From contig NZ_JANZXB010000005.1 in NCBI RefSeq assembly GCF_025371035.1, positions 62,001-126,000 of the forward strand: 64,000 bases of DNA. The letters run 5' to 3'. Source of the stretch: Sphingomonas sp. LC-1 (lineage in GTDB: Bacteria > Pseudomonadota > Alphaproteobacteria > Sphingomonadales > Sphingomonadaceae). Shown here one piece after another: positions 11,367 to 38,495 of the stretch. Position numbers and translations under genes: made by a program. Under the pieces are notes generated by a model, which saw only the letters and a program-made list of their open reading frames with translations, ran no database searches and was not told the origin of the DNA. The first letter of the stretch is position 1. Each line of letters begins with the position of its first letter.

Positions 11367-12818
11367 CTATTCCAGCCCCAAAGCCACCCGATCGGCGGTA
11401 GCGGCGGCGAGTTCGGCGCGGGCGGCCGCGATCCGGGCCTGAGCGTCGATCAGGCGGACCCGCGCGTCGTTCGCCGTCTCCTCGCGCTGGTTGACCAGAA
11501 AGAAATCGCTCGACCCCAGCTCGAACCGTCGCCGCTCGGCAGCGGCGAGCCGTTCGGCAAGCTGGCGTTCCTGCTCCGCGATCGAAGCCAGCTTCTCGGC
11601 CGCGCCCACGCCGATCGTGATCCCCTCGACTTCGACCGTGATCTGATCGCGCAGAAAACGGCTGCGCGCCGACAGTGCGTCCATTTCGGCCTGCGCTTCA
11701 ACGATCCGCCCTTTTGCCGCCCGGTTCTGAAGCGGCATCGAAAAGCGGAAGCCGACCGCCGCCTCCAGGGGCGTCCGCGAGGAACCGCCAAGCCCCACGG
11801 GCCCGACGTCCTTGCCCACCTCGCCGCGCAGGTCGAGCCGGGGGCGGAGATCGTTCTGCGCCAAAGCGAGACGGGCGGCCCCCTGATCGATACGGGTCAG
11901 CAGCATCTGGAGGTCGGGGCGTCGCCGTTCGAAATCGTTTCGGGCAGCGGCGGCGACGCCGGCCAGTGCATTGGCGTCAGGGGGCAGGCGCTCCGGCCCG
12001 ACCAGCAAAGGATCACCGGCGGCATCGCGGAAATACAGGGAGAGCGCATTGGCCGCTGCTTGGAAATCACCCTCAGCCCGAACCACCAAGGCGCGGCGGC
12101 GAACGAGATTCTGGTCGTTCTCGGCGAGCAAAATGTCGGGCCGCGCGCCAAGCTGTACCTGGCGGGCAAGGCCGCCGCGACGGCTTTCCGACAGCGACAG
12201 AAGGTCGCGATAGGCACGCAGTCGCAGGCCCGCCGCGACCCAGTTCTGATAGGCGTCGATCGCGCGCCGCTGTACGCCGATCGCCACGGCCTGACGCTCG
12301 AATTGCGCGATGTCGATGTCGCCGGAGGCCAATGTACGCCGCGTCCGGCGCTCGTCGATCAAGCGATCGCGGAGCAGCGAATAGAGCGCGCCGACCTTCA
12401 CCTCGCCGAGGCGGTTGGTGTAGTTCTCGTCCTCATAGACCGGGAAGCCACCCCGGCTGACGCGATAATTGCCATAGACGTAACCGCCATTGTCGGTCAG
12501 CGGACGGGTGGCGCGGGCCGAGGCGATGGTCCCGTCATAATAGCCCAAAGTACGCGAGCGGCCCTCGGCATCGAACACCGTGTCGAACGCGCCGTTGGCG
12601 GTGATGGCGCGCCCCTCTGCGGCGCGTATCTTGGCGAGCGCCTCGACGATCTGCGGGGCCGCGCGGGCAGAGGCGCGCAGCACCTCGTCCAGGGTCAGCG
12701 GACTCGTCGTGGGCACCGACGCGGGGGCGGGGTTCGCCTCAATCCGCTGCGCCGTCGCGGGGAGGGCAATGGCTGGCGGAACGATCAGCGCCGACAGGAG
12801 CAGAAGCGGCCGGATCAT
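11367..12818 (-). CDS. TolC-family outer-membrane channel protein
   Basis: 483 residues. A signal peptide (MIRPLLLLSALIVPPA, cleavage near ATAQ) precedes two TolC/OEP repeats: long heptad-rich helices (IVEALAKIRAAEGRAI in the first, VEAQAEMDALSARSRF in the second) with short strand regions between. Length and architecture fit the outer-membrane partner of type I secretion or tripartite efflux. It is the last gene of the ABC-HlyD-TolC operon and overlaps the HlyD stop by four bases, so it is dedicated to this system rather than a shared housekeeping TolC (inference). Confidence 0.9.
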   Translation of the reverse strand: MIRPLLLLSALIVPPAIALPATAQRIEANPAPASVPTTSPLTLDEVLRASARAAPQIVEALAKIRAAEGRAITANGAFDTVFDAEGRSRTLGYYDGTIASARATRPLTDNGGYVYGNYRVSRGGFPVYEDENYTNRLGEVKVGALYSLLRDRLIDERRTRRTLASGDIDIAQFERQAVAIGVQRRAIDAYQNWVAAGLRLRAYRDLLSLSESRRGGLARQVQLGARPDILLAENDQNLVRRRALVVRAEGDFQAAANALSLYFRDAAGDPLLVGPERLPPDANALAGVAAAARNDFERRRPDLQMLLTRIDQGAARLALAQNDLRPRLDLRGEVGKDVGPVGLGGSSRTPLEAAVGFRFSMPLQNRAAKGRIVEAQAEMDALSARSRFLRDQITVEVEGITIGVGAAEKLASIAEQERQLAERLAAAERRRFELGSSDFFLVNQREETANDARVRLIDAQARIAAARAELAAATADRVALGLE

Positions 12819-13888
12819 TTCAGCTTGCCTGCCTTGGCCGCGATCTTCTTGTCGTCGTCCTTGTCCGCGCCCTTATCGGTCGCGGTTTGGCCAAATTCCA
12901 AGGGGAAGTCGTTGAGTTGGCGCCACAGCTCATAGCCGACCGTGACGGTCTCGCCTTGCACCCAACCCTGTACCTTGCCGCCCAGCCGGACGAAGCGGCG
13001 TGCGGGCCAGGCGGGCTTGCCCGGCACCGGTTCGACGAGGATGCGGAACAGCCCTTGTGCATTGGCATTGGGATCGATCGTGCGAACCCGGCCATCGAAA
13101 AAGCCATAGGCGACCGATGGCCAGCCACTGAACTGGATCGCGGGCCAGCCTTCGAACTCCAGCCGAACCGGGCGCCCCGGTCGCAGCAGTGGCACGTCAC
13201 GGCCGTCGATCAGCAACTCGACCGCCCGCTCGACCTGTTCGGGCGCGACCACCGCCAGCGCGGTGCCGGCCGACACCAGCGCGCCGCCCGCCGCGGCGTT
13301 GAGGTTCTGGATACGACCATCGCGCGGGGCACGAACCAACTGGGCCGACTGGCGATTGAGCTGGACCTCTATCCGGTTCAGCTTGGCGCGGGACTCCGCC
13401 AGCTTGGCCCCCGAGTCCGCGACCTTGATCTGTGCCTGCTCATAATCGCGCCGCGACGCCAATCCTTCGGAAAATAGCTGGCGCGTGCGATTGACATCGA
13501 TCGAGGCGACCGATTGGGACTGGCGAACCGAGGCGATCTCCGCCTGCACCTGCGCGCGCTCGGCGGCGAGGCGGGACAGCAAATTGGGGTCGAGGTCGAC
13601 AATGCGGGCGATCGGGTCACCGCGCTTCACATGCTGGCCGTCATGGACATACCAGCGCTCGACCCGCCCCGGCACCAGTGCGGTCACGTCCTGTGCCCGA
13701 TCCTGTGGATCGAGCGAGACGACCTGTCCTCGGCCTTGCGCGGTTTGCAGCCACGGCACGAAGAACAGAATGAAGATCGCCGCCGCGATACCCACCGCCA
13801 GCATCCAGGCGATGGCGACGGTGACCCGTGGCGGACGCAGCGACCCAAGCGTGCGGAAATGGGCGAGATGCTCAGGCAGATGCGACAT
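12815..13888 (-). CDS. HlyD-family periplasmic adaptor protein
   Basis: 357 residues. One N-terminal inner-membrane helix (about 24-47) is followed by a lipoyl/biotinyl-like half motif (ALVPGRVERWYVHDGQHVKRGD) and a coiled-coil hairpin (about 105-175). The second lipoyl half (VRAPRDGRIQNLNAAAGG) and a beta-barrel domain complete the membrane-fusion-protein layout. The C-terminus is rich in Lys and Asp. It overlaps the ABC gene by 17 bases and the TolC gene by four. It should bridge the inner-membrane ABC protein and the outer-membrane channel. Confidence 0.9.
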   Translation of the reverse strand: MSHLPEHLAHFRTLGSLRPPRVTVAIAWMLAVGIAAAIFILFFVPWLQTAQGRGQVVSLDPQDRAQDVTALVPGRVERWYVHDGQHVKRGDPIARIVDLDPNLLSRLAAERAQVQAEIASVRQSQSVASIDVNRTRQLFSEGLASRRDYEQAQIKVADSGAKLAESRAKLNRIEVQLNRQSAQLVRAPRDGRIQNLNAAAGGALVSAGTALAVVAPEQVERAVELLIDGRDVPLLRPGRPVRLEFEGWPAIQFSGWPSVAYGFFDGRVRTIDPNANAQGLFRILVEPVPGKPAWPARRFVRLGGKVQGWVQGETVTVGYELWRQLNDFPLEFGQTATDKGADKDDDKKIAAKAGKLK

Positions 13889-15557
13889 TGGCGTCCTCCT
13901 GGCTGATGGCGGACCGAAGATCGGCCAGGTGCTCGAAGCGGCGCTGCTCGGTCAGGCCCAGATAGAGATATCCATCCAACTCCAGATCCTCGGGGCGGCC
14001 GGTACAGAGCAATACCGTCGTGCCGTGCGCCTTGAGATGCCGCAGAGCCGCCGACAGCCGCTCGGGTGGCAACAGGTCGAAAAGCTGGCCCAGGAGAAGC
14101 AATTTGGGGCGGACCAGAAGCGCATTGGCCAGCTTCAGGGCCATGGTCTCGCCCACGCTGAGCGGATAACCGGTCGAACCGAGCGGCGTGTCCAATCCCT
14201 GGGGCAGGCTGGCAAGGCGGCGTTCCAGCCCCACCATTGCCAGCGCTTCCATCGCGCCTTCGCCAATGTCCCCAGACGCAAGCCGCAGATATTCGCGGAT
14301 CGTGACCTCGACGATCGTCGATCGATCGAGCACGGTAACGTCCGACCGCAGATGATACATGTCGAACGACCCCAGATCGGTGCCCCCGATCCGGACCAGG
14401 CCGCGGTCGGGCACGGCATGACGCTTCAGCAACATCGCCAATCGGCGTTCGGCGCCGGGTTCGGCGACCGTCACAAGCTGCTCTCCAGCCGCGAGGGTCA
14501 GGGTGTAGCGCGCGTCGTTGAAGACGACGTCGGTCAGCTTGACCGATCCGTCGCGTGGGCCGCTCTCACCGCGCACCTTCGGCTCCTGGGGAATGGCGAA
14601 CAGCAACGATAGCTCCTCGGAGCTGGCCGCCAGATCGTAGAAGGTGTCGAGATACAGGCCGAGTTGCGAAATGCCGTAAAAGACCCCCGAAAGGATCAAC
14701 TCCGCTGCGACCAATTGGCCGAGCGACAATTGCCCCCGGAGGATCAACATGCCGCCGAGCAGCAGCAAACCGGCGCTCGCAAAGGCGTAGATCAGCAGGA
14801 AGGCCACCGTCTGTGCGAACTGATATCGAAAGTACCGGCGATGGGTATCGACATAGCTGGCGGTCATCGCCTCCGACCGGACCATGGCGAAGTCGAGATG
14901 GCGAAGCGACTTGTAGAAGCCGTTCGATCCGCCGACGCTTTCCAGCCAGCGGGCCGCATTGTGCTTGGCATGGCTCAGCGCCACGGCACCGCTGATCGCA
15001 CCGCGCCGCCACAACAGCCAAACCAGCAAAAGCGCTGCGACCAGCACGACGTTGAAGGCTAGAAAGACGGGGTGATAGAAGCTGGTGATCGTCAACCCGA
15101 TCACGGCTTGCAGCACGATGGTGAAGCCGCCGATGACCAGGCTGGGCACCGACTTCTGAACGACGACCAGGTCGAAATAACGATTGAACAGATCGCCGCG
15201 ATTGCCGTCGGCAAAGAACGGATCCTGCGCATGGACCGCGCGAAGGGTCACCTCGGCCACGACGCGCGAAAACAGGCGCCGTTCGAACGCCGCCATGATC
15301 CAGACTCGAAGCGCGCTCAGCGCGGCCACCATCAACAAGAGGAGCAGCAAGACCCCGGACAGCGCCCATAAAGGCGCAGGCATCGCGGTGTTGGCGACGC
15401 TGTTGATCAGCAACTGAACCGAAATGGGGGTGGCAAGTGCTAACAGACTGATCGCAATGGTATAGACGATGCCGAGCCTGACATAGGCGGCATCTGGGCC
15501 TATGATCTGCGACAGCCAGCCCGCCGCATCGCGAAATCCCAATCGCTCCGTCGCCAA
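13872..15557 (-). CDS. ABC-transporter-like membrane protein with degenerate, probably inactive ATPase domain
   Basis: 561 residues: a six-helix ABC exporter membrane domain (about 25-310) and a nucleotide-binding-domain fold (about 335-550). Each ATP-binding motif is altered. At the Walker A position there is AEPGAERRL (about 365-373) with no GK[ST]. The Q-loop reads VTVLDRSTIV without Gln. The signature is LSVGE (466-470). The Walker B end is LLLLGQ (486-491), so both the Asp and the catalytic Glu are lost. The H-loop reads LLCTGRP without His. The frame is intact and hydrophobic packing is kept, so this is not a simple pseudogene. The start is TTG, set by AAGGGGGA about seven bases upstream. 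First gene of the operon with HlyD and TolC. Confidence 0.85.
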   Translation of the reverse strand: MATERLGFRDAAGWLSQIIGPDAAYVRLGIVYTIAISLLALATPISVQLLINSVANTAMPAPLWALSGVLLLLLLMVAALSALRVWIMAAFERRLFSRVVAEVTLRAVHAQDPFFADGNRGDLFNRYFDLVVVQKSVPSLVIGGFTIVLQAVIGLTITSFYHPVFLAFNVVLVAALLLVWLLWRRGAISGAVALSHAKHNAARWLESVGGSNGFYKSLRHLDFAMVRSEAMTASYVDTHRRYFRYQFAQTVAFLLIYAFASAGLLLLGGMLILRGQLSLGQLVAAELILSGVFYGISQLGLYLDTFYDLAASSEELSLLFAIPQEPKVRGESGPRDGSVKLTDVVFNDARYTLTLAAGEQLVTVAEPGAERRLAMLLKRHAVPDRGLVRIGGTDLGSFDMYHLRSDVTVLDRSTIVEVTIREYLRLASGDIGEGAMEALAMVGLERRLASLPQGLDTPLGSTGYPLSVGETMALKLANALLVRPKLLLLGQLFDLLPPERLSAALRHLKAHGTTVLLCTGRPEDLELDGYLYLGLTEQRRFEHLADLRSAISQEDANVASA

Positions 15558-15737
15558 GACAATCCCCCTTCACACGATGAGCGCGCCGATAATGGCCGTT
15601 TTTTGCCGGACTGTTGCTGGATCTTTATAAAAGGTACGTTCCGGCTTAATCCATGTGATGCCAGGATAATGACAAATGCGTCATGTGGCCAATCGGAATG
15701 TTGATGGCGGGCCCATAGAAAATGGCTATGGCAAGAT

Positions 15738-16643
15738 ATGCCCACTCTGCGTCAACTCGAATATCTGGTCACGATCGCGGATACGGGATCGTTCGCGCTG
15801 GCGGCACGGGTCGCCCATGTGTCGCAACCAACGCTCAGCCAACAGGTCCGCACGCTCGAGGAACGGCTCGGCACCAAGCTGCTCGAGCGCAGCGCGACGG
15901 GGGCGATGCTGACGCCCGTCGGGCGCAGTATCGTGGCGACGGCGCGACGGATGTTGAGCGATGCCAGTGACATCGCTGCACTGGCGGCGGGTGCCTCGGA
16001 CAAGCTGACAGGGACCTTGCGACTGGGGACGACGCCCACGCTCGGGCCGTATCTTCTATCCCCTATCATCGCCGAACTGCACCGCATGGCACCGCAGCTA
16101 CGGTTGCATGTGCGCGAGGGGATACCCGACGAACAGGTGCTGGAGCTGTCGCGCGGCAATATCGACGTGGTGCTCGGACCGTTGCCCATGACCGGGGAGG
16201 ACCTAACGATCGAGCCGCTCTTCCGCGAACCATTGCACCTGGTGGCGGCGCTCGATCATCCGATCGACCTTGGCGTACAGACCGCGCATGAGGCGTTGGC
16301 GGGCATTCCGCTGCTGACCCTGGACCCACGCCATCATCTTGCGCGACAGGCCGCCGAAGTCGCCGAGCGATATGGCATGACGATCGCGCCGGACTATTAC
16401 GGCACCAGCCTGGAAAGCTTGCACCAGATGGTCGCGAGCGGCCTTGGCTTCGCGCTTTTGCCGGGCCTCTATCTTCGGTCGCAGATCGGTGGGGCTACCG
16501 GTCTGAAGCTGTTGCCGGTCGAGGGCTGGCGCGTTCATCGGTCGATCGCGATCGCCTGGCGGCGGCAATCGCCCATGGGCGCGGCTTTCGGGCTGCTCGC
16601 CGATCATGTCCAGGGCTGTGCGCGGCAATTGCTGGAGCCATAG
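15738..16643 (+). CDS. LysR-family regulator, OxyR-like but without the redox cysteines
   Basis: 301 residues. The N-terminal HTH (about 3-62) reads LRQLEYLVTIADTGSFALAA and VSQPTLSQQVRTLEERLG, close to OxyR in pattern. The effector domain (about 90-295) aligns with OxyR through the segment LLTLDPRHHLARQAAEVAE. There the two cysteines that form the OxyR disulfide would be His and Val. The only cysteine in the effector domain is near the C-terminus. It therefore should not sense peroxide by a disulfide. It is divergent from the ABC-HlyD-TolC operon with 180 bp between, so it is the natural candidate regulator of that operon (inference). Confidence 0.85.
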   Translation: MPTLRQLEYLVTIADTGSFALAARVAHVSQPTLSQQVRTLEERLGTKLLERSATGAMLTPVGRSIVATARRMLSDASDIAALAAGASDKLTGTLRLGTTPTLGPYLLSPIIAELHRMAPQLRLHVREGIPDEQVLELSRGNIDVVLGPLPMTGEDLTIEPLFREPLHLVAALDHPIDLGVQTAHEALAGIPLLTLDPRHHLARQAAEVAERYGMTIAPDYYGTSLESLHQMVASGLGFALLPGLYLRSQIGGATGLKLLPVEGWRVHRSIAIAWRRQSPMGAAFGLLADHVQGCARQLLEP

Positions 16644-24463: not shown

Positions 24464-26338
24464 TCAGTCCCCGCGTGAGCACGATACGCCCTCGGCGGCC
24501 GCAAGATTGATCGGAGGACGGGATGGTATCTCAACGGTTTTCGCAGGAGCGATACCGCAGGGCGAGTATATGGTAGTTGCACTACCGTCATAAGGAAGAA
24601 CTGCGCGATCCCCTGCTTCAAATCGGGGCACATCATATATGCCGTCTATCAGCAGGTCGAGCAAAGCGTTTACGAACCCCGAAGTGTCCGTGACGGTCGC
24701 GATCGAATGGCGTTGGGGCGATACCGGATCAATCGAGACGAAGTCATCCGCGACTTGGCTGGCGTTGCTCAGGCGGAGGGATGCTATGTCCATTGCCTCA
24801 CAGAGGCTTGCGACGGTCTCTGCCTCGTCGTCGGGGGCTTCGCCGATATGGATTAAGCCCCATGGACGAAGATGATCCGGCAGTGCCGCAATGGCGGGGA
24901 GGCCCATCGCGTCCGCTGAAAGTGCTCCGACGACACGGTGGCTGATGCCCCGCCTTGCGCAAATCCCGGCCCATATATCGGCGGCGCTCGCATCACGGCA
25001 CCATATGAGCAACGGCCGGTCATGCTGGTGTTCGGATGGAAGCGGCGCTTTGATCGGATGGGGCAGGGCGGGATAGACTAGCCGCTCGGACCTCCGCCAC
25101 CAGCCGGGTGCCATCGCGACCGGATGTCGCGCCGCGCCGGCCGCCAAGCCGCTCCACAATCGCGCGAGAGCGGTCGGCCGTGGAGTCCCGTCCGACACGT
25201 CGAACACCCCTGGCTCATAGCGGCCGGGTTTGGTCAGCAATGTATCCCATCCGTGCGAACCCAGAAGCGACCATGCCGTGACCGCACGGATATCGACGCC
25301 GTCGTTTCGCACGGTCAAGCATTTGTCCCAGGCCTCCGCCGCCCAGCGCAATTGTTCCTCGCGGGTGCAGCCATTGTGCACCTCGGTCACGGCCAAGGGG
25401 GTTCCGTAACGGTCCCATGCTTCCTGCAAAGCACCGGCAAGCCCGGGCGGCGGTGGATCGAGAACGCGCACGGCCTCCACATCCGCATAGACACGTCGGG
25501 CATTGCCGCCATGGGTATGCGTCGGATAACGTTGCAATCGGTGATCGAGGAAGCGGTCGCTGGTCAGATAATGGTTCACGCCGACGATGTCGGGCGGGCA
25601 GGGATCGTCCGCGATCCGACGCAACCGCTCGGCAAAGCCGAAGCTTGCGATCCGGGTCCACAGGGGATGATGCGGCGTGATGCGCCCGAACAGCAAATCC
25701 CATCCCGCCCAGCGACGGAGATTGTCGAACGCCGCCTGTTCGCCCAGTAGAACGGTGGCATAGGTACGGCCCAGATCGTCGGTCTGGATCAGCTTGGCCG
25801 CCGGATTGACCTGCCGGATCGCCCGCATGGCGGCCCGCGTGCCATCGATCTGGTTGAGCAGCGCGAGCCAGAAGGCCGCTTCATCCCGAGCGTGCGGATA
25901 CCAATGGCCGTAAAGGCCCGAAAAGCGCGCCGTCGTCAGGGGTTCGTTGACCGGCGTCCAGCTCTCTATCCATGGATAACGCTCGACGACCTTTGCAGCA
26001 TAGTCGCCCAGCCCGGTGGCAAAACCATCGTCCAGCAGATGCGTATGCGGCGGACCGCTGCCGTGATGGACCAGCCCTGCGATGGGCCGAATGCCAAGGT
26101 CGCGCAATCGCCCAAGCCTCTCATCGGTCCATGACCAGTCGGGCGTGCGTCCGTCCGGCATCACCCGTTCCCACAAAACGGGATAGCGGATCGCCGTCAT
26201 CCCCAGCGAGGCGAACAGGTCGAGATCGGCAAGTCGGCCGTGATGTCCGCTTAGGCGAATTTGATCGCTATAGCCCGCCGCAGTGCGATTGACGGTGCAT
26301 TCCACGCCGCCCCAGAATTGCAGGCCATCCATCGGCAT
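24464..26338 (-). CDS. Family 1 glycoside hydrolase fused to a degenerate RmlD-like domain
   Basis: 624 residues. Residues 1-400 are a GH1-type TIM barrel with acid/base E132 (WTPVNEPLTT) and nucleophile E319 (AVTEVHNG). From about 438 to 590 the sequence tracks the Rossmann fold of RmlD-type dTDP-4-dehydrorhamnose reductases that are fused to such hydrolases in related bacteria. Here the dinucleotide loop is lost (LLIWCRDASAADIW instead of a GxxGxxG). It is probably a structural or dead domain. A GGAAC-N16-CGTT promoter lies 14-38 bases before the start. Expected to act on, or help build, a surface or stress glycan; the substrate is unknown. Confidence 0.75.
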   Translation of the reverse strand: MPMDGLQFWGGVECTVNRTAAGYSDQIRLSGHHGRLADLDLFASLGMTAIRYPVLWERVMPDGRTPDWSWTDERLGRLRDLGIRPIAGLVHHGSGPPHTHLLDDGFATGLGDYAAKVVERYPWIESWTPVNEPLTTARFSGLYGHWYPHARDEAAFWLALLNQIDGTRAAMRAIRQVNPAAKLIQTDDLGRTYATVLLGEQAAFDNLRRWAGWDLLFGRITPHHPLWTRIASFGFAERLRRIADDPCPPDIVGVNHYLTSDRFLDHRLQRYPTHTHGGNARRVYADVEAVRVLDPPPPGLAGALQEAWDRYGTPLAVTEVHNGCTREEQLRWAAEAWDKCLTVRNDGVDIRAVTAWSLLGSHGWDTLLTKPGRYEPGVFDVSDGTPRPTALARLWSGLAAGAARHPVAMAPGWWRRSERLVYPALPHPIKAPLPSEHQHDRPLLIWCRDASAADIWAGICARRGISHRVVGALSADAMGLPAIAALPDHLRPWGLIHIGEAPDDEAETVASLCEAMDIASLRLSNASQVADDFVSIDPVSPQRHSIATVTDTSGFVNALLDLLIDGIYDVPRFEAGDRAVLPYDGSATTIYSPCGIAPAKTVEIPSRPPINLAAAEGVSCSRGD

Positions 26339-26417: not shown

Positions 26418-26443
26418 GGAACTTGGCGAAGCGGCAGGTTGTT
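26418..26443 (+). promoter_or_regulatory. Sigma-EcfG-like promoter of the glycosyltransferase-UGM fusion gene
   Basis: GGAAC (26418-26422), 17 bases, then TGTT (26440-26443), 34 bp before the GTG start at 26478. It differs from the consensus -10 (CGTT) at one base. It faces away from the promoter of the GH1 fusion gene. Confidence 0.55.
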
Positions 26444-26477
26444 TCCTCTTTGTAACAGCGATGAAAAGGGAGCCTCC

Positions 26478-28838
26478 GTGATCACCCAGCCGTCGACCGC
26501 CGCCAAGAGCTCCGCCTTGTATCACCGCCGCCCGCGATCGACGCTGATCTGCTTTAGCCATCTCCGCTGGGGCTTCGTCTTTCAAAGGCCGCAGCATCTG
26601 ATGACGCGCTTCGCCATGACGCAGGACGTCCTGTTCTGGGAGGAGCCGGAGTACCGCCAGGGACCTCCCGAACTGCGCCGTCATATCTGTCCGGACAGCG
26701 GTGTCGTCGTGCTGACGCCGCTACTCGACGAGGCCTTGCGAGGATGCGAGGACGAGGCGCTGACGGCCTTGCTGGATGCCGAGATGGCAGGCGTCACGGG
26801 TCCGCTCATTCGATGGTACTACACGCCGATGATGCTGCCCTTCTCGGACCATGTTCCGGCGGCTTGCATCGTTTATGATTGCATGGACGAACTCTCGGCG
26901 TTCAAGGGAGCGCCGCCTGAGTTGCTGGAGCGCGAGCAACGGCTGATCGAGCGGGCGGATCTGGTCTTCACGGGCGGGACAAGCCTGTACGAGGCGAAGC
27001 GGCGGCGCCATTCGAACGTCCACGCCTTTCCCTCCAGCATCGACGCAGCGCATTTCGGCCGGGCACGGGGCCGCGTGGCCGAACCCGCCGACCAGACGGA
27101 ACTGCCCCGGCCAAGGTTGGGCTTTGCAGGCGTGGTAGACGAGCGGATGGACCTCGATCTGCTGGGGGCGCTGGCGGATGCGCATCCGGAATGGTCGCTG
27201 GTCGTCATCGGTCCCGTGGTGAAGATCGACGAGGCCGATCTGCCGCGCCGCGCCAATATCCATTATCTGGGCGGGCGTCCCTATGCGGCGCTGCCGGACT
27301 ATATGGCGGGTTGGGATGTCGCGCTGATGCCCTTCGCCATCAATGAGGCGACGCGGTTCATCAGCCCGACCAAGACGCCGGAATATCTTGCGGCCGGGTG
27401 CCCGGTCGTCTCGACGCCGATTACTGATGTGGTGCGTCATTATGGCGAATTGGCGGGCGTGGCGATTGCCGACACGCCCGCCGCCTTCGTCGCGGCCTGC
27501 GAGGCGGGGATGGCGCTACGCGACGCCGGGCATGGCTGGCGCGACAAGGCGGATGCGCAACTTTCCGGGGGATCGTGGAGCAGCACGGCGCTCGAGATGA
27601 CTGCCCTGATCGAGGCGGAGATGGCGGGGCGCACCCGGCACGAGCCCATCGTGTCGCCGGTCACCTGGCCCCCTCTGCGCGATCGATATGACGTGATGGT
27701 GGTGGGCGCGGGCTTTGCCGGGGCGGTCATGGCGGAGCGGCTGGCCGCCGACGGAGGGAAGCGGGTGCTGGTGGTCGACCGGCGATCGCATATCGCGGGC
27801 AATGCCTATGATCATCACGACGCGGCGGGTATATTGGTCCACCGCTACGGCCCGCATATCTTCCACACCAATTCGAGCGAGATATTCGACTATCTCTCGC
27901 GCTTCACCGATTGGCGGCCCTATGAACATCGCGTCCTGGCCGATGTCGATGGCAAGCTGGTGCCGATGCCGATCAACCGCACGACGCTGAACGCACTCTA
28001 TGGCCTGGAACTGTCCAGCGATGCGGAGGTCGAGGCGTTCCTGGCATCGCGTGCCGAGCCGGTCGATCCGATCCGCACCTCCGCCGATGTGGTGGTGTCG
28101 AGGGTAGGGCGCGAACTCTACGAGACCTTCTTTCGCGGCTATACCCGCAAGCAATGGGGCATGGACCCGTCGGAGCTCGACAAGTCGGTGACCGCGCGCG
28201 TGCCGACCCGCAGCGGTACCGACGATCGCTATTTCAGCGACCGCTATCAGGCGATGCCCGTGCGTGGATTTACGCGGATGTTCCAGGCGATGCTGGATCA
28301 CCCCAATATCGATCTGCTCCTGGGTGTCGATTATGCCGATGTTCGGGAAGCCTATCCACACGATCATCTGGTCTTTACCGGGCCGATCGATGAATATTTC
28401 GGCTATCGTTATGGCCATTTGCCCTATCGTTCGCTTCGGTTCGAGCATCGGACGCTGGACGAGGAACAGCATCAGCCGGTTGCCGTGGTCAACTTCCCCG
28501 ACGAGGCGGTGCCCTATACCCGGATCACCGAATATAAGCATCTGACCGGACAGGTCGCGCCGCAGACCAGCCTGACCTATGAATATCCAAGTGCGACCGG
28601 CGACCCCTATTACCCAATCCCTCGCGACGAAAACCAGGCGCTTTACAAACGCTACGAGGCACTGGCCCTGGCGGAGCCGCATGTCAGCTTCGTCGGTCGG
28701 CTGGCGACCTATCGCTACTATAACATGGACCAGGTCGTCGGACAGGCCTTGGCAACCTATCGCCGCCTGAAGCCTATCTTGGCCGAGACCACTATGACGA
28801 CCGCTGCGGAACTGGCGCGAGGACGCAGCGCTGCCTGA
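26478..28838 (+). CDS. Glycosyltransferase fused to UDP-galactopyranose mutase
   Basis: 786 residues from a GTG start with AAAGGGAG six bases upstream; a TTG further up is less likely. Residues 20-390 form a GT4-like glycosyltransferase (FSHLRWGFVFQRPQHLM at the N-terminus, donor-site region SPTKTPEYLAAGCPVVSTP). From about 403 a complete Glf-type mutase begins with the FAD loop VMVVGAGFAGAVMAERLA. It continues with RYGPHIFHT and the UGM core FRGYTRKQWG, and ends in the usual YRYYNMDQVV region. The mutase converts UDP-galactopyranose to UDP-galactofuranose, which the attached transferase could use at once. Likely product: a galactofuranose-containing surface glycan (inference). Confidence 0.9.
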   Translation: MITQPSTAAKSSALYHRRPRSTLICFSHLRWGFVFQRPQHLMTRFAMTQDVLFWEEPEYRQGPPELRRHICPDSGVVVLTPLLDEALRGCEDEALTALLDAEMAGVTGPLIRWYYTPMMLPFSDHVPAACIVYDCMDELSAFKGAPPELLEREQRLIERADLVFTGGTSLYEAKRRRHSNVHAFPSSIDAAHFGRARGRVAEPADQTELPRPRLGFAGVVDERMDLDLLGALADAHPEWSLVVIGPVVKIDEADLPRRANIHYLGGRPYAALPDYMAGWDVALMPFAINEATRFISPTKTPEYLAAGCPVVSTPITDVVRHYGELAGVAIADTPAAFVAACEAGMALRDAGHGWRDKADAQLSGGSWSSTALEMTALIEAEMAGRTRHEPIVSPVTWPPLRDRYDVMVVGAGFAGAVMAERLAADGGKRVLVVDRRSHIAGNAYDHHDAAGILVHRYGPHIFHTNSSEIFDYLSRFTDWRPYEHRVLADVDGKLVPMPINRTTLNALYGLELSSDAEVEAFLASRAEPVDPIRTSADVVVSRVGRELYETFFRGYTRKQWGMDPSELDKSVTARVPTRSGTDDRYFSDRYQAMPVRGFTRMFQAMLDHPNIDLLLGVDYADVREAYPHDHLVFTGPIDEYFGYRYGHLPYRSLRFEHRTLDEEQHQPVAVVNFPDEAVPYTRITEYKHLTGQVAPQTSLTYEYPSATGDPYYPIPRDENQALYKRYEALALAEPHVSFVGRLATYRYYNMDQVVGQALATYRRLKPILAETTMTTAAELARGRSAA

Positions 28839-36068: not shown

Positions 36069-38495
36069 CTAATCATGGCGCAGCGCCGAGGCGGGAGCCG
36101 CGCGGCTGGCGCGCCACGCCTGACCGAGGACGGTTAACACTGCGATGACGAGCGCCAGCACGGAAGCTCCCACGAAATAGAGCGGGGACAGGGCGATACG
36201 GTCGTCAAAACCGGCCAGCCAGGTGCGCATCGCAAAGAAGGCCAAGGGCCATGCGATGGCATTCGCGATCAGAACCGGGCGCAGGAACTGTCCGACGAGC
36301 AGTTTGACGATGTCTGACGTGGACGCCCCCAGCGTCTTCCTGATGCCGATCTCCTTGACCCGGCGCTGCGTGTTGAAGGAGGCGAGGCCCCAAAGACCGA
36401 TGCAACCGATCAGCACCGCCAACCCTGCGCCGATGCCGAAGAGCCGGGTCGCCCGGTCATCCTCTTCATAAAAAGTCTGGAGCAACTGCTCCCCCGTATC
36501 CGCGCGAAACGGCGCTTCGGGCGCAATCCTGACCCAGGCGGCGCGCACCGCGTCCCTTATGCGCCGAGGATCGCCGGTGAAGCGCATCGTCGCCACGGGA
36601 TAACTTACGATGCCGTGGGTGTAGGTGTAGTAGACCGGGGTTGCGGGTATGTGCGGCGAGAAGAAGCGCAGATCGTCGATCACGCCGACAATCGTCATCG
36701 GCCGGGGTTGGACGATGGTCTTGCCGATCGCCTCTTCCGGCGAATAAAAGCCGAGGGCCGAAACCGCCTTGCGCGATATGACGATGTTGACCGCCACGTC
36801 CTTTTCGGCATTCTTTCTATCGTCCAGGCGATGGGCGTCGTCGAGAAGGCGACCAGCAATGGCCTTCGCACCGAACAGGCGGAAGAAGTCCGACCCTATG
36901 CGGATGCCCCGAGCGGCTGGCCCGGGGCCCGGCCGACCGGACAGAAGGAGATTGTCGGAATTGTTATTCCCGACATCGCCCACACCAGTATCGGATGTCG
37001 TCACCATCGACACGCCCGGCACCGCCCGGAAGGCGTCGATCAGAGCGAGATGCTTGGCCGAATCGACATAACCCAGCCATGGGGCCACTAGCAGCCCTTC
37101 GCGCCGAAACCCCAGATCGGCCTGACGGACATGGCGCGTCTGCGCGACGAGGACGGCCGTGCCGATCAGAAAAGCGATCACCAATGCGAACTGAGCCACG
37201 ACCAGCGCTTCGCGTACCCTGGCCCCTGCTCGCCCACCACCCGGCGCACGCGCAGAGGCAAGCACCGCCGCGACCGGAAAGCGGGACAACAATACGGCCG
37301 GATAAGAGCCAGCAAGAATGCCGACGCCGATCGAAAGCAGCAACAGCACCGGCACAACGACAGCATAGGGCATCGTCAGGGACAGGCCGCCGGCCGCATT
37401 GACCAAAGGCAGTCCGACCTCCGCCAGCATCAGCCCAAGCAGCGCCGCCACTGCCACGGCCAACACCGCTTCGCTCAGGAACTGGCGGACCAGCGTGGCA
37501 CGGTCGGCGCCCAGAACCTTGCGCATGGCGACTTCGCGGGCCCGAAGCCCGGCCCGAGCACTTGCGAGGTTCACGTAATTGACGACCGCAATCAGCAGGG
37601 TCAGCACGCCGACCAATCCCAGCGTGACGATGGTCAGCTTGCGGCTCGCGCTTTCCTGACCGGCCGGTTGGAGATGCGCCTTGGTCAAGGCAAGGAGCGG
37701 CAGGCCGATGCGCGTCGCCACGTCTTCTCCCAAGTCCCGTGCGCCATGCCGGGCGACGAAGCCGGGTATTTTCTGTTGGAATGCCTCGGCAGCGGCTTCG
37801 TCAGGAAAGCGGAGATAGGTCTTGAGGGAAGTGCTGCCCCAATGATCCCACCAATCGCCCAGGTCGCTGGTGGGCAGCCGAGCCAGAATGGTGAACCGGA
37901 AGTCGGTCGTCTTGGGCAAATCCCTGAACACGCCCGTGACCCGGTGCGGCGCGGTCTTGTCGAGTGCCAGCGTCATCGTCTCGCCGATCGGATTGGCATA
38001 ACCGAAATATTTCCGCGCCGCGGACTGGCTGATGATCACGCTTGTCGGGTCTGCCAGCGCGCTTGCCTTGTCGCCCGCGACCCATGGCAGGTCGAACACC
38101 TGCAGGAAGCTTGCATCGACTTGCGCTATGTCATCGAATGTCGCGATGCCGTTGCGGACTATGCTGCCCCCGTCCTTGCCGTCCATATTAGCGCCGCCCA
38201 TGATGCGGGTGCCGACCAGGTCGGGAAAGTCCTGCCGCAATTCGTCGAGCAACCCTCCCATGGTAAACGGATAGGTTCCGGCGAACGGACCATCGGCGCG
38301 TTTCTAGTCGGTCTGGACGAGATATATCCCGTCATGGTGCGGCAGCCACTTTTCGAAGCTGGTCTCGAAGCGGACATAGAGGGCGAGGACGAAAAACACC
38401 GCGATCCCGACGGCAAGCCCCCCGATGTTGAGCGCAGCAAAGAGCTTGTGGCGTGTCAGGGACCGATAGAAGGCGGTGAAGGCGAAGCTGTTCAT
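36069..38495 (-). pseudogene. FtsX/MacB-type permease gene interrupted by an in-frame TAG
   Basis: Read through one stop, the gene encodes 808 residues. An AGGAG site precedes the ATG, followed by MNSFAFTAFYRSLTR and a first membrane helix (about 20-42). Codon 64 is TAG (38304-38306); beyond it the same frame continues without further damage (KRADGPFAGTYPF, then the periplasmic MacB_PCD domain and FtsX helices at about 280-400 and 680-805). Such proteins are permeases of ABC systems that export lipoproteins or peptides, and need an ATPase partner; none lies here. A single base change, for example from TGG or CAG, explains the stop. Sequencing error or suppression cannot be excluded. Confidence 0.8.

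Follow-up and report, generated by a model that had tools for sequence, protein, structure and literature searches.

An operon for an ABC exporter without its ATP site

The window analysed here, that is, the whole stretch of 64,000 nucleotides from Sphingomonas sp. LC-1 (contig NZ_JANZXB010000005.1, positions 62,001 to 126,000), carries on its minus strand an operon that encodes (i) an ATP-binding cassette (ABC) exporter half-transporter of 561 residues with a TTG start (13872–15557), predicted to be ATPase-dead from its sequence and from family comparison; (ii) an HlyD/RND-type periplasmic adaptor of 357 residues (12815–13888), with a family-specific C-terminal motif, [YF]E.WR..N.FP; and (iii) a TolC-like outer membrane factor of 483 residues (11367–12818). 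The three frames are intact and overlap end to start, in keeping with the first-pass annotation of this DNA, which had described an intact ABC frame tightly coupled to genes for HlyD and TolC. The adaptor scores 96.0 bits with the RND_mfp model, over the cut-off of 94.9, and the closest named relative among those fetched, from S. paucimobilis, matches the ABC protein at 94% across its length.

The ABC protein comprises a membrane domain (residues 20–318; 14604–15500) and a degenerate nucleotide-binding domain (pseudo-NBD; residues 335–540; 13938–14555). Its Pfam score for ABC_membrane is 29.8 bits, over the cut-off of 28, and that for ABC_tran, the NBD model, is 24.2 bits, just below the cut-off of 25; in a structure model compared by VIA-align, the predicted NBD fold is intact, so the earlier statement that the membrane domain and the NBD fold are retained holds. 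The residues of the ATP site are gone. The Walker A position reads AEPGAERRL (14439–14465), the Walker B position reads LLLLGQ (14085–14102), Gly520 replaces the H-loop His (13998–14000), and the residues of the Q-loop, D-loop, and A-loop are likewise missing. The first-pass annotation was correct on every motif that it listed as lost, except that it counted the Gly-Gly of the signature among them; LSVGE at this position (14148–14162) retains the second Gly.

To place these losses, we defined the family as all fetched loci with an ABC match to the window protein of >250 bits (146 loci, 111 distinct proteins including the truncated L092, 35–100% identity to the window protein), and used as controls the 37 distinct remaining proteobacterial matches, picked by score rather than by motif, which comprise 19 MsbA-like orthologues, mostly from the same genus, and 18 others. 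The two sets are separated by a wide gap in score, with the lowest family member at 315 bits and the highest control at 102 bits. At the aligned sites, Walker A, the Walker B Asp, and the Walker B Glu are found in none of the 111 family proteins, and the Q-loop is lost in all of them; the first signature Gly is missing in 110 of the 110 proteins with a letter at that column, the second is retained in 60 of 111, and 89 of 111 have a gap in the phosphate loop where its second Gly would stand. Each of the 37 controls has the complete set of Walker A, Q-loop, signature, Walker B, D-loop, and H-loop. Walker A, SGG, and DE strings do occur in 11 of the 111 members, and were rejected as retained motifs because they are located away from the sites; similarly, a 44% match in genome G863 was rejected as a family member, since its NBD is canonical. 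Moreover, the pseudo-NBD has conserved residues of its own, among them K378, R404, R412, G463, P465, K475, and D494, at 96–100% conservation. The first-pass annotation would have read the loss as simple decay if close homologues kept GK[ST] and DE, which none of the 111 does.

The same annotation proposed a search for homologues that share the losses and keep HlyD and TolC, and the 111 proteins form such a family: HlyD and TolC genes follow the ABC gene in 71 of the 71 distinct loci longer than 8 kb (in a separate coordinate set of 66 loci, one contig, L117, stops ahead of TolC). The motif [YF]E.WR.LN.FP is present in 70 of the 71 HlyD proteins, the remaining one having IN instead of LN; a different motif, for the HlyD tip, proved uninformative, with matches in 39 of 71, and was set aside. 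In a draw of 339 genomes across the phylum, this HlyD subfamily was found in 8, the same 8 that carry the dead ABC protein in a similar draw of 349, and it was therefore not seen with an active ABC protein in that draw. The pairwise distances of the three proteins correlate at 0.958–0.970, as expected for joint inheritance, a correlation that shared ancestry alone also raises.

Selection, conserved residues, and distribution

Among 15 close orthologues (105 pairs), the median omega was lowest for the membrane domain (0.074), followed by HlyD (0.093), the pseudo-NBD (0.130), and TolC (0.149). We then compared the two halves of the dead protein with those of the MsbA-like exporter in the 19 genomes that carry both (171 pairs; 3 of 22 genomes were dropped because their control sequence lay outside the set). 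The median NBD/membrane-domain distance ratio was 1.91 in the dead protein versus 0.52 in the MsbA-like exporter, and the NBD had diverged more than the membrane domain in 168 of 171 pairs versus 6 of 171. Consistent with this, 106 of 299 columns are ≥90% conserved in the membrane domain versus 36 of 206 in the pseudo-NBD. Purifying selection on the protein is thus inverted, with the membrane domain the more conserved half, opposite to the MsbA-like control; the membrane domain has become the main target of selection, and the NBD is still maintained.

Ten residues of the protein, Y32, K135, Q150, H162, S195, K198, W204, Q249, E286, and Y307, are specific to the family, being conserved at 95–100% in its members and present in all three of the Bacteroidota relatives described below, and in 0 of 37 controls. 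Two of them are of particular interest for the proposed mechanism (counts refer to 110 dead proteins, with the truncated or split copy L092, which also has Glu at 286, counted apart). E286 (codon at 14700–14702) lies in the sixth hydrophobic segment, in the last transmembrane (TM) helix, 279–321 in the model, and is Glu in 110 of 110 dead proteins, 3 of 3 Bacteroidota proteins, and no control; Q150, in TM3 (codon at 15108–15110), is Gln in 105 of 110, 3 of 3, and 0 of 37, respectively. HMMER aligns E286 to the first Phe of the TVFF stretch of ABCB-type exporters, a region that lines the drug cavity in P-glycoprotein.

With the ABC protein of the window as query, the dead protein was found in 50 of 151 genomes of the genus (E ≤ 1e-40), one of which (G002) has two copies, and in 36 of 298 genomes of the family Sphingomonadaceae (E ≤ 1e-30). 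A class-wide draw gave matches in 3 of 289 genomes, all three in Sphingomonadaceae. In the phylum draw, 66 of 349 genomes matched (E ≤ 1e-18), 8 of them closely (38–100%); these 8 include one from another family of the same order and three from a family of another class (f174), in which a dedicated search matched 10 of 118 genomes. Among the weak phylum matches, 22 loci (L144–L165) and two places in G863 were fetched and are those covered here, and all that entered the alignment or a closer reading are canonical.

A remote relative with the same gene order is present on plasmid records of the Bacteroidota Persicobacter, Aureibacter, and Riemerella (annotated in the latter two, read from open reading frames in Persicobacter), and the HlyD of all three has the C-terminal YE.WR motif of the proteobacterial HlyD. 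The Persicobacter and Riemerella proteins retain a Walker A-like loop and have lost the signature, the Walker B Asp, and the H-loop His; in Aureibacter, Walker A is gone as well. In a tree of the membrane domain only (22 dead, 3 Bacteroidota, and 21 canonical proteins), the Bacteroidota proteins join the dead group with a support of 100/100, and a full-length tree (43, 3, and 37 proteins, respectively; SH-aLRT only) agrees, long branches being flagged in both. Comparison of the three lineages suggests a stepwise loss, of hydrolysis first and then of the P-loop. A scan of the viral_contigs set gave no active Bacteroidota member, the lineages read being the three plasmid-borne ones. The Persicobacter relative (L133:6494–8668) is also longer by ~150 residues at its N-terminus. 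It aligns to the LssB model (84–715 on 70–691) from residue 84, within this extension and ahead of its membrane domain, so a type I secretion exporter may have been ancestral.

Proposed transport without hydrolysis and its alternatives

Across the family, the ATP site is lost, and the operon and the membrane domain are held under selection. Our preferred reading, which we put forward tentatively as plausible though short of probable, is that a conserved pseudo-ATPase ABC exporter serves as the inner-membrane part of a dedicated HlyD-TolC tripartite complex, which transports without hydrolysis of its own. The ABC protein would form a homodimer and dock on HlyD-TolC, with the pseudo-NBDs acting as a rigid or regulated dimer clamp rather than as a motor, and the membrane domain would move a specific small substrate without itself hydrolysing ATP. 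The drive could be the gradient of the substrate itself, or the flow of protons or of some other ion, coupled by way of the buried E286 in TM6 and perhaps Q150 in TM3. Such coupling possibly follows the precedent of LmrA, for which two papers (PMC2704374, PMC6155054) describe ion-coupled transport without ATP by the NBD-less form, LmrA-MD, and an E314 in TM6 that is modelled near TM3 amides and matters in proton-dependent transport. The bolder version, in which a whole ABC exporter clade, spanning at least two phyla, gave up ATP hydrolysis and became an ion-gradient-driven (or gated, passive) tripartite exporter by means of an invariant transmembrane glutamate, seems to us possible but doubtful.

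Several observations weigh against these proposals. Ion coupling would draw on a single buried residue and on an analogy; in the LmrA work itself, deletion of Walker A from the full-length protein strongly cut ion transport in cells (PMC2704374), and one nucleotide assay of LmrA-MD recorded no current (PMC6155054). Selection maintains the pseudo-NBD (omega 0.13), a domain that a purely secondary transporter might not need. Furthermore, traces of the ATP site persist in a few family members, with the D-loop Asp retained in 11 of 111, a His at the H-loop position in 2 of 111, and a Lys aligned with that of Walker A in 2 of 111, where the rest of the motif is absent. The structure model of the ABC protein is a single chain of moderate quality; in two carriers, G006 of the genus set and G186 of the family set, the membrane part and the NBD part lie in separate frames; and 30 of the 71 loci lack a LysR gene of the window type within the distances tested.

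Two of the alternatives are options that the first-pass annotation had rightly named beside another energy source, namely an active partner and a non-transport role. As to the former, the dead protein could depend on an active ABC half-transporter whose gene lies elsewhere, the two forming an obligate heterodimer with ATP sites that are mostly those of the partner. TmrAB and TM287/288 are well-known exporters of this heterodimeric kind, in which one site is degenerate (PMC8277102), the window genome carries several canonical ABC exporters (the LssB model alone has 45 matching stretches in it, which leaves room for an orphan active NBD), and the second signature Gly retained in 60 of 111 proteins would fit. 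However, the dead chain of such a pair must lend its signature to the Walker A and B of the partner, whereas none of the 110 proteins with a letter at the first signature Gly has that residue, and no second ABC gene stands in the window operon. Across 67 loci, taken with flanks of a few kb, BLAST clustering grouped 68 proteins with the dead ABC; the one in excess is the second fragment of a split copy, so no neighbouring ABC exporter joined this cluster. In a co-occurrence test over 25 genomes, which is blind to exporters present in every genome, the LssB/LapB-type exporter of the window genome was not found (E ≤ 1e-150) in 7 of the 8 dead-ABC carriers. This exporter is thus not supported as the obligate partner; at that threshold it was found in 2 of the 25 genomes, G000 and G008, and G008 has no dead-ABC match. 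We consider a partner elsewhere unlikely.

A non-transport role, in which the ABC protein acts as a scaffold across the envelope, or as a sensor signalling to LysR or gating HlyD-TolC, is in our estimation similarly improbable. Loss of catalysis with retention of the fold fits a scaffold, and the frequency of an adjoining LysR gene (41 of 71 loci) would suit a sensor; yet conservation peaks in the membrane domain, where it extends to charged and amide residues, and HlyD and TolC are always retained, so that conduction fits better than scaffolding.

A site that still binds nucleotide through replaced residues, such as K378/R379 after the P-loop and R521 at the H-loop, with ATP binding gating the complex without normal hydrolysis, is quite unlikely. 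The conservation of K378, R379, R412, and R521 (91–100%) and the Walker A-like loop of two of the three Bacteroidota relatives speak for it, but Walker A, Q-loop, and Walker B are lost in 111 of 111 proteins, and the gap at the second Gly of the phosphate loop recurs in 89 of them. Finally, a pseudogene, local decay, or an assembly error, for which the two split-frame carriers could be cited, is ruled out for the window copy with near certainty, because the same losses occur in 111 proteins that form a single tree clade under purifying selection and the window frame is intact.

For transport without hydrolysis by the membrane domain, the preferred reading, the family offers a direct test: hydrolysis of ATP is the defining trait of ABC exporters, and the case for secondary transport by their membrane domains rests on LmrA and MsbA, partly in engineered forms (PMC2704374, PMC6155054, PMC4979069). 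The family also suggests that proteins named "ABC transporter ATP-binding protein" in public records (H1, H2, H3, H11, and H14) may not be ATPases.

Neighbouring genes and comparison with known systems

A LysR regulator gene lies divergent from the ABC gene (15738–16643, plus strand). The protein is closest to OxyR, at 176.1 bits and below the model cut-off of 329, and has a single Cys, close to its C-terminus. LysR genes of the same type adjoin the operon in a divergent, codirectional, or downstream position, and LysR would control the complex in many species. Most of the intergenic DNA varies among 15 divergent loci; the exceptions are the palindrome ATAG-N7-CTAT, which has the form of an OxyR half-site, and TCCGATTGGC. 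In the 64 kb window, the palindrome, a likely LysR site, has a single exact copy, between the LysR and ABC genes (15715–15729), and the second block, GCCAATCGGA (TCCGATTGGC on the other strand), lies at 15688–15697. Of 18 divergent loci (window excluded, near relatives unmerged), 14 have an exact palindrome and 16 have one with at most one mismatch, where base shuffles expect 0.35. As a site upstream of codirectional LysR genes it was rejected, being exact in 1 of 20.

Two loci of the other-class family differ in their regulator: the LysR adjoining L182 is closest to NhaR (189.7 bits of 219), and the divergent LysR upstream of the ABC gene in L183 is, by look only, NhaR-like rather than OxyR-like. 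NhaR is sodium-responsive. DabA/DabB-like genes (CO2 or bicarbonate uptake) stand beside the operon in several loci, upstream in L061, L062, L064, L066, L067, and L137 and nearby in L082, with DabA assigned by Pfam (L061, L066), by the product name DUF2309 (L137), or by BLAST cluster (the rest); L137 also has a carbonic anhydrase gene. DabA occurs in 13 of the 151 genus genomes, 11 of which are among the 50 dead-ABC carriers (Fisher p 1e-4, with kinship ignored), and lies within ~6 kb of the dead ABC gene in 4 of these 11. The window genome has no DabA match, so CO2 or bicarbonate uptake as the function of the operon counts as no more than a lead.

Elsewhere in the window, a single open reading frame (26439–28838, plus strand) has a glycosyltransferase group 1 match followed by UDP-galactopyranose mutase; a 730-residue FtsX/MacB-type permease (36069–38261, minus strand) has two FtsX and two MacB_PCD stretches; and a 624-residue open reading frame (24464–26338, minus strand) has a weak glycosyl hydrolase family 1 match over residues 17–365 only. 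The window gave no Rfam match at the gathering score and no tRNA.

Among known systems, the type I secretion system (HlyB/LssB-HlyD-TolC) shares with the operon its gene order, the ABC exporter fold, the HlyD adaptor, and the TolC channel, and the best curated matches of the window ABC protein are LssB and HlyB. However, scores against the curated type I secretion models are all far below the cut-offs: LssB at 99.1 of 693.1 bits, HlyB at 96.5 of 725.55, type_I_hlyD at 84.3 of 208.65, and type_I_sec_TolC at 26.9 of 225.15. The dead family lacks the ATPase motifs, and the window protein lacks an extra N-terminal domain; its short adaptor scores as RND_mfp instead of type_I_hlyD. The first-pass label "type-I-secretion-like" therefore stands for a relative of these systems and not for a member. 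RND tripartite efflux shares the adaptor model, but its inner-membrane protein is an RND pump, whereas the gene here is ABC-type. TmrAB and TM287/288 resemble the dead protein in their ABC exporter fold and in the partial loss of catalytic residues in one chain, but they pair with an active subunit (PMC8277102), which was not seen beside the dead-ABC genes.

We recognised no description of an ATPase-dead HlyD/TolC family among the literature matches listed, a coverage that mostly excludes subscription papers. The nearest published mention is HlyBD2-OMP2 of Blastomonas fulva T2, a hlyB-hlyD-omp operon called an ABC-type pump (PMC9505733). It is likewise a sphingomonad operon with similar gene sizes (1659, 1053, and 1503), but the parts of that paper covered here mention neither motif loss nor a function test. 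Compared by description rather than by sequence, HlyBD2-OMP2 may belong to the dead family. Its best match is given under CP000248 of N. aromaticivorans (PMC9505733), and the copy of the dead ABC gene read here, SARO_RS19820 of N. aromaticivorans DSM 12444, is on plasmid pNL2.

With LmrA and LmrA-MD, the dead family appears to share a TM6 glutamate and TM3 amides (E286 and Q150), E286 being compared with LmrA E314 by its location in TM6 and not by alignment, so that equivalence is not claimed. LmrA differs in being an active ATPase, and LmrA-MD is an engineered truncation, whereas the dead family lost its ATP site naturally and in all members, retains the predicted NBD fold, and belongs to a tripartite system. 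If the ion-driven clade is real, it would be the natural counterpart of engineered LmrA-MD.

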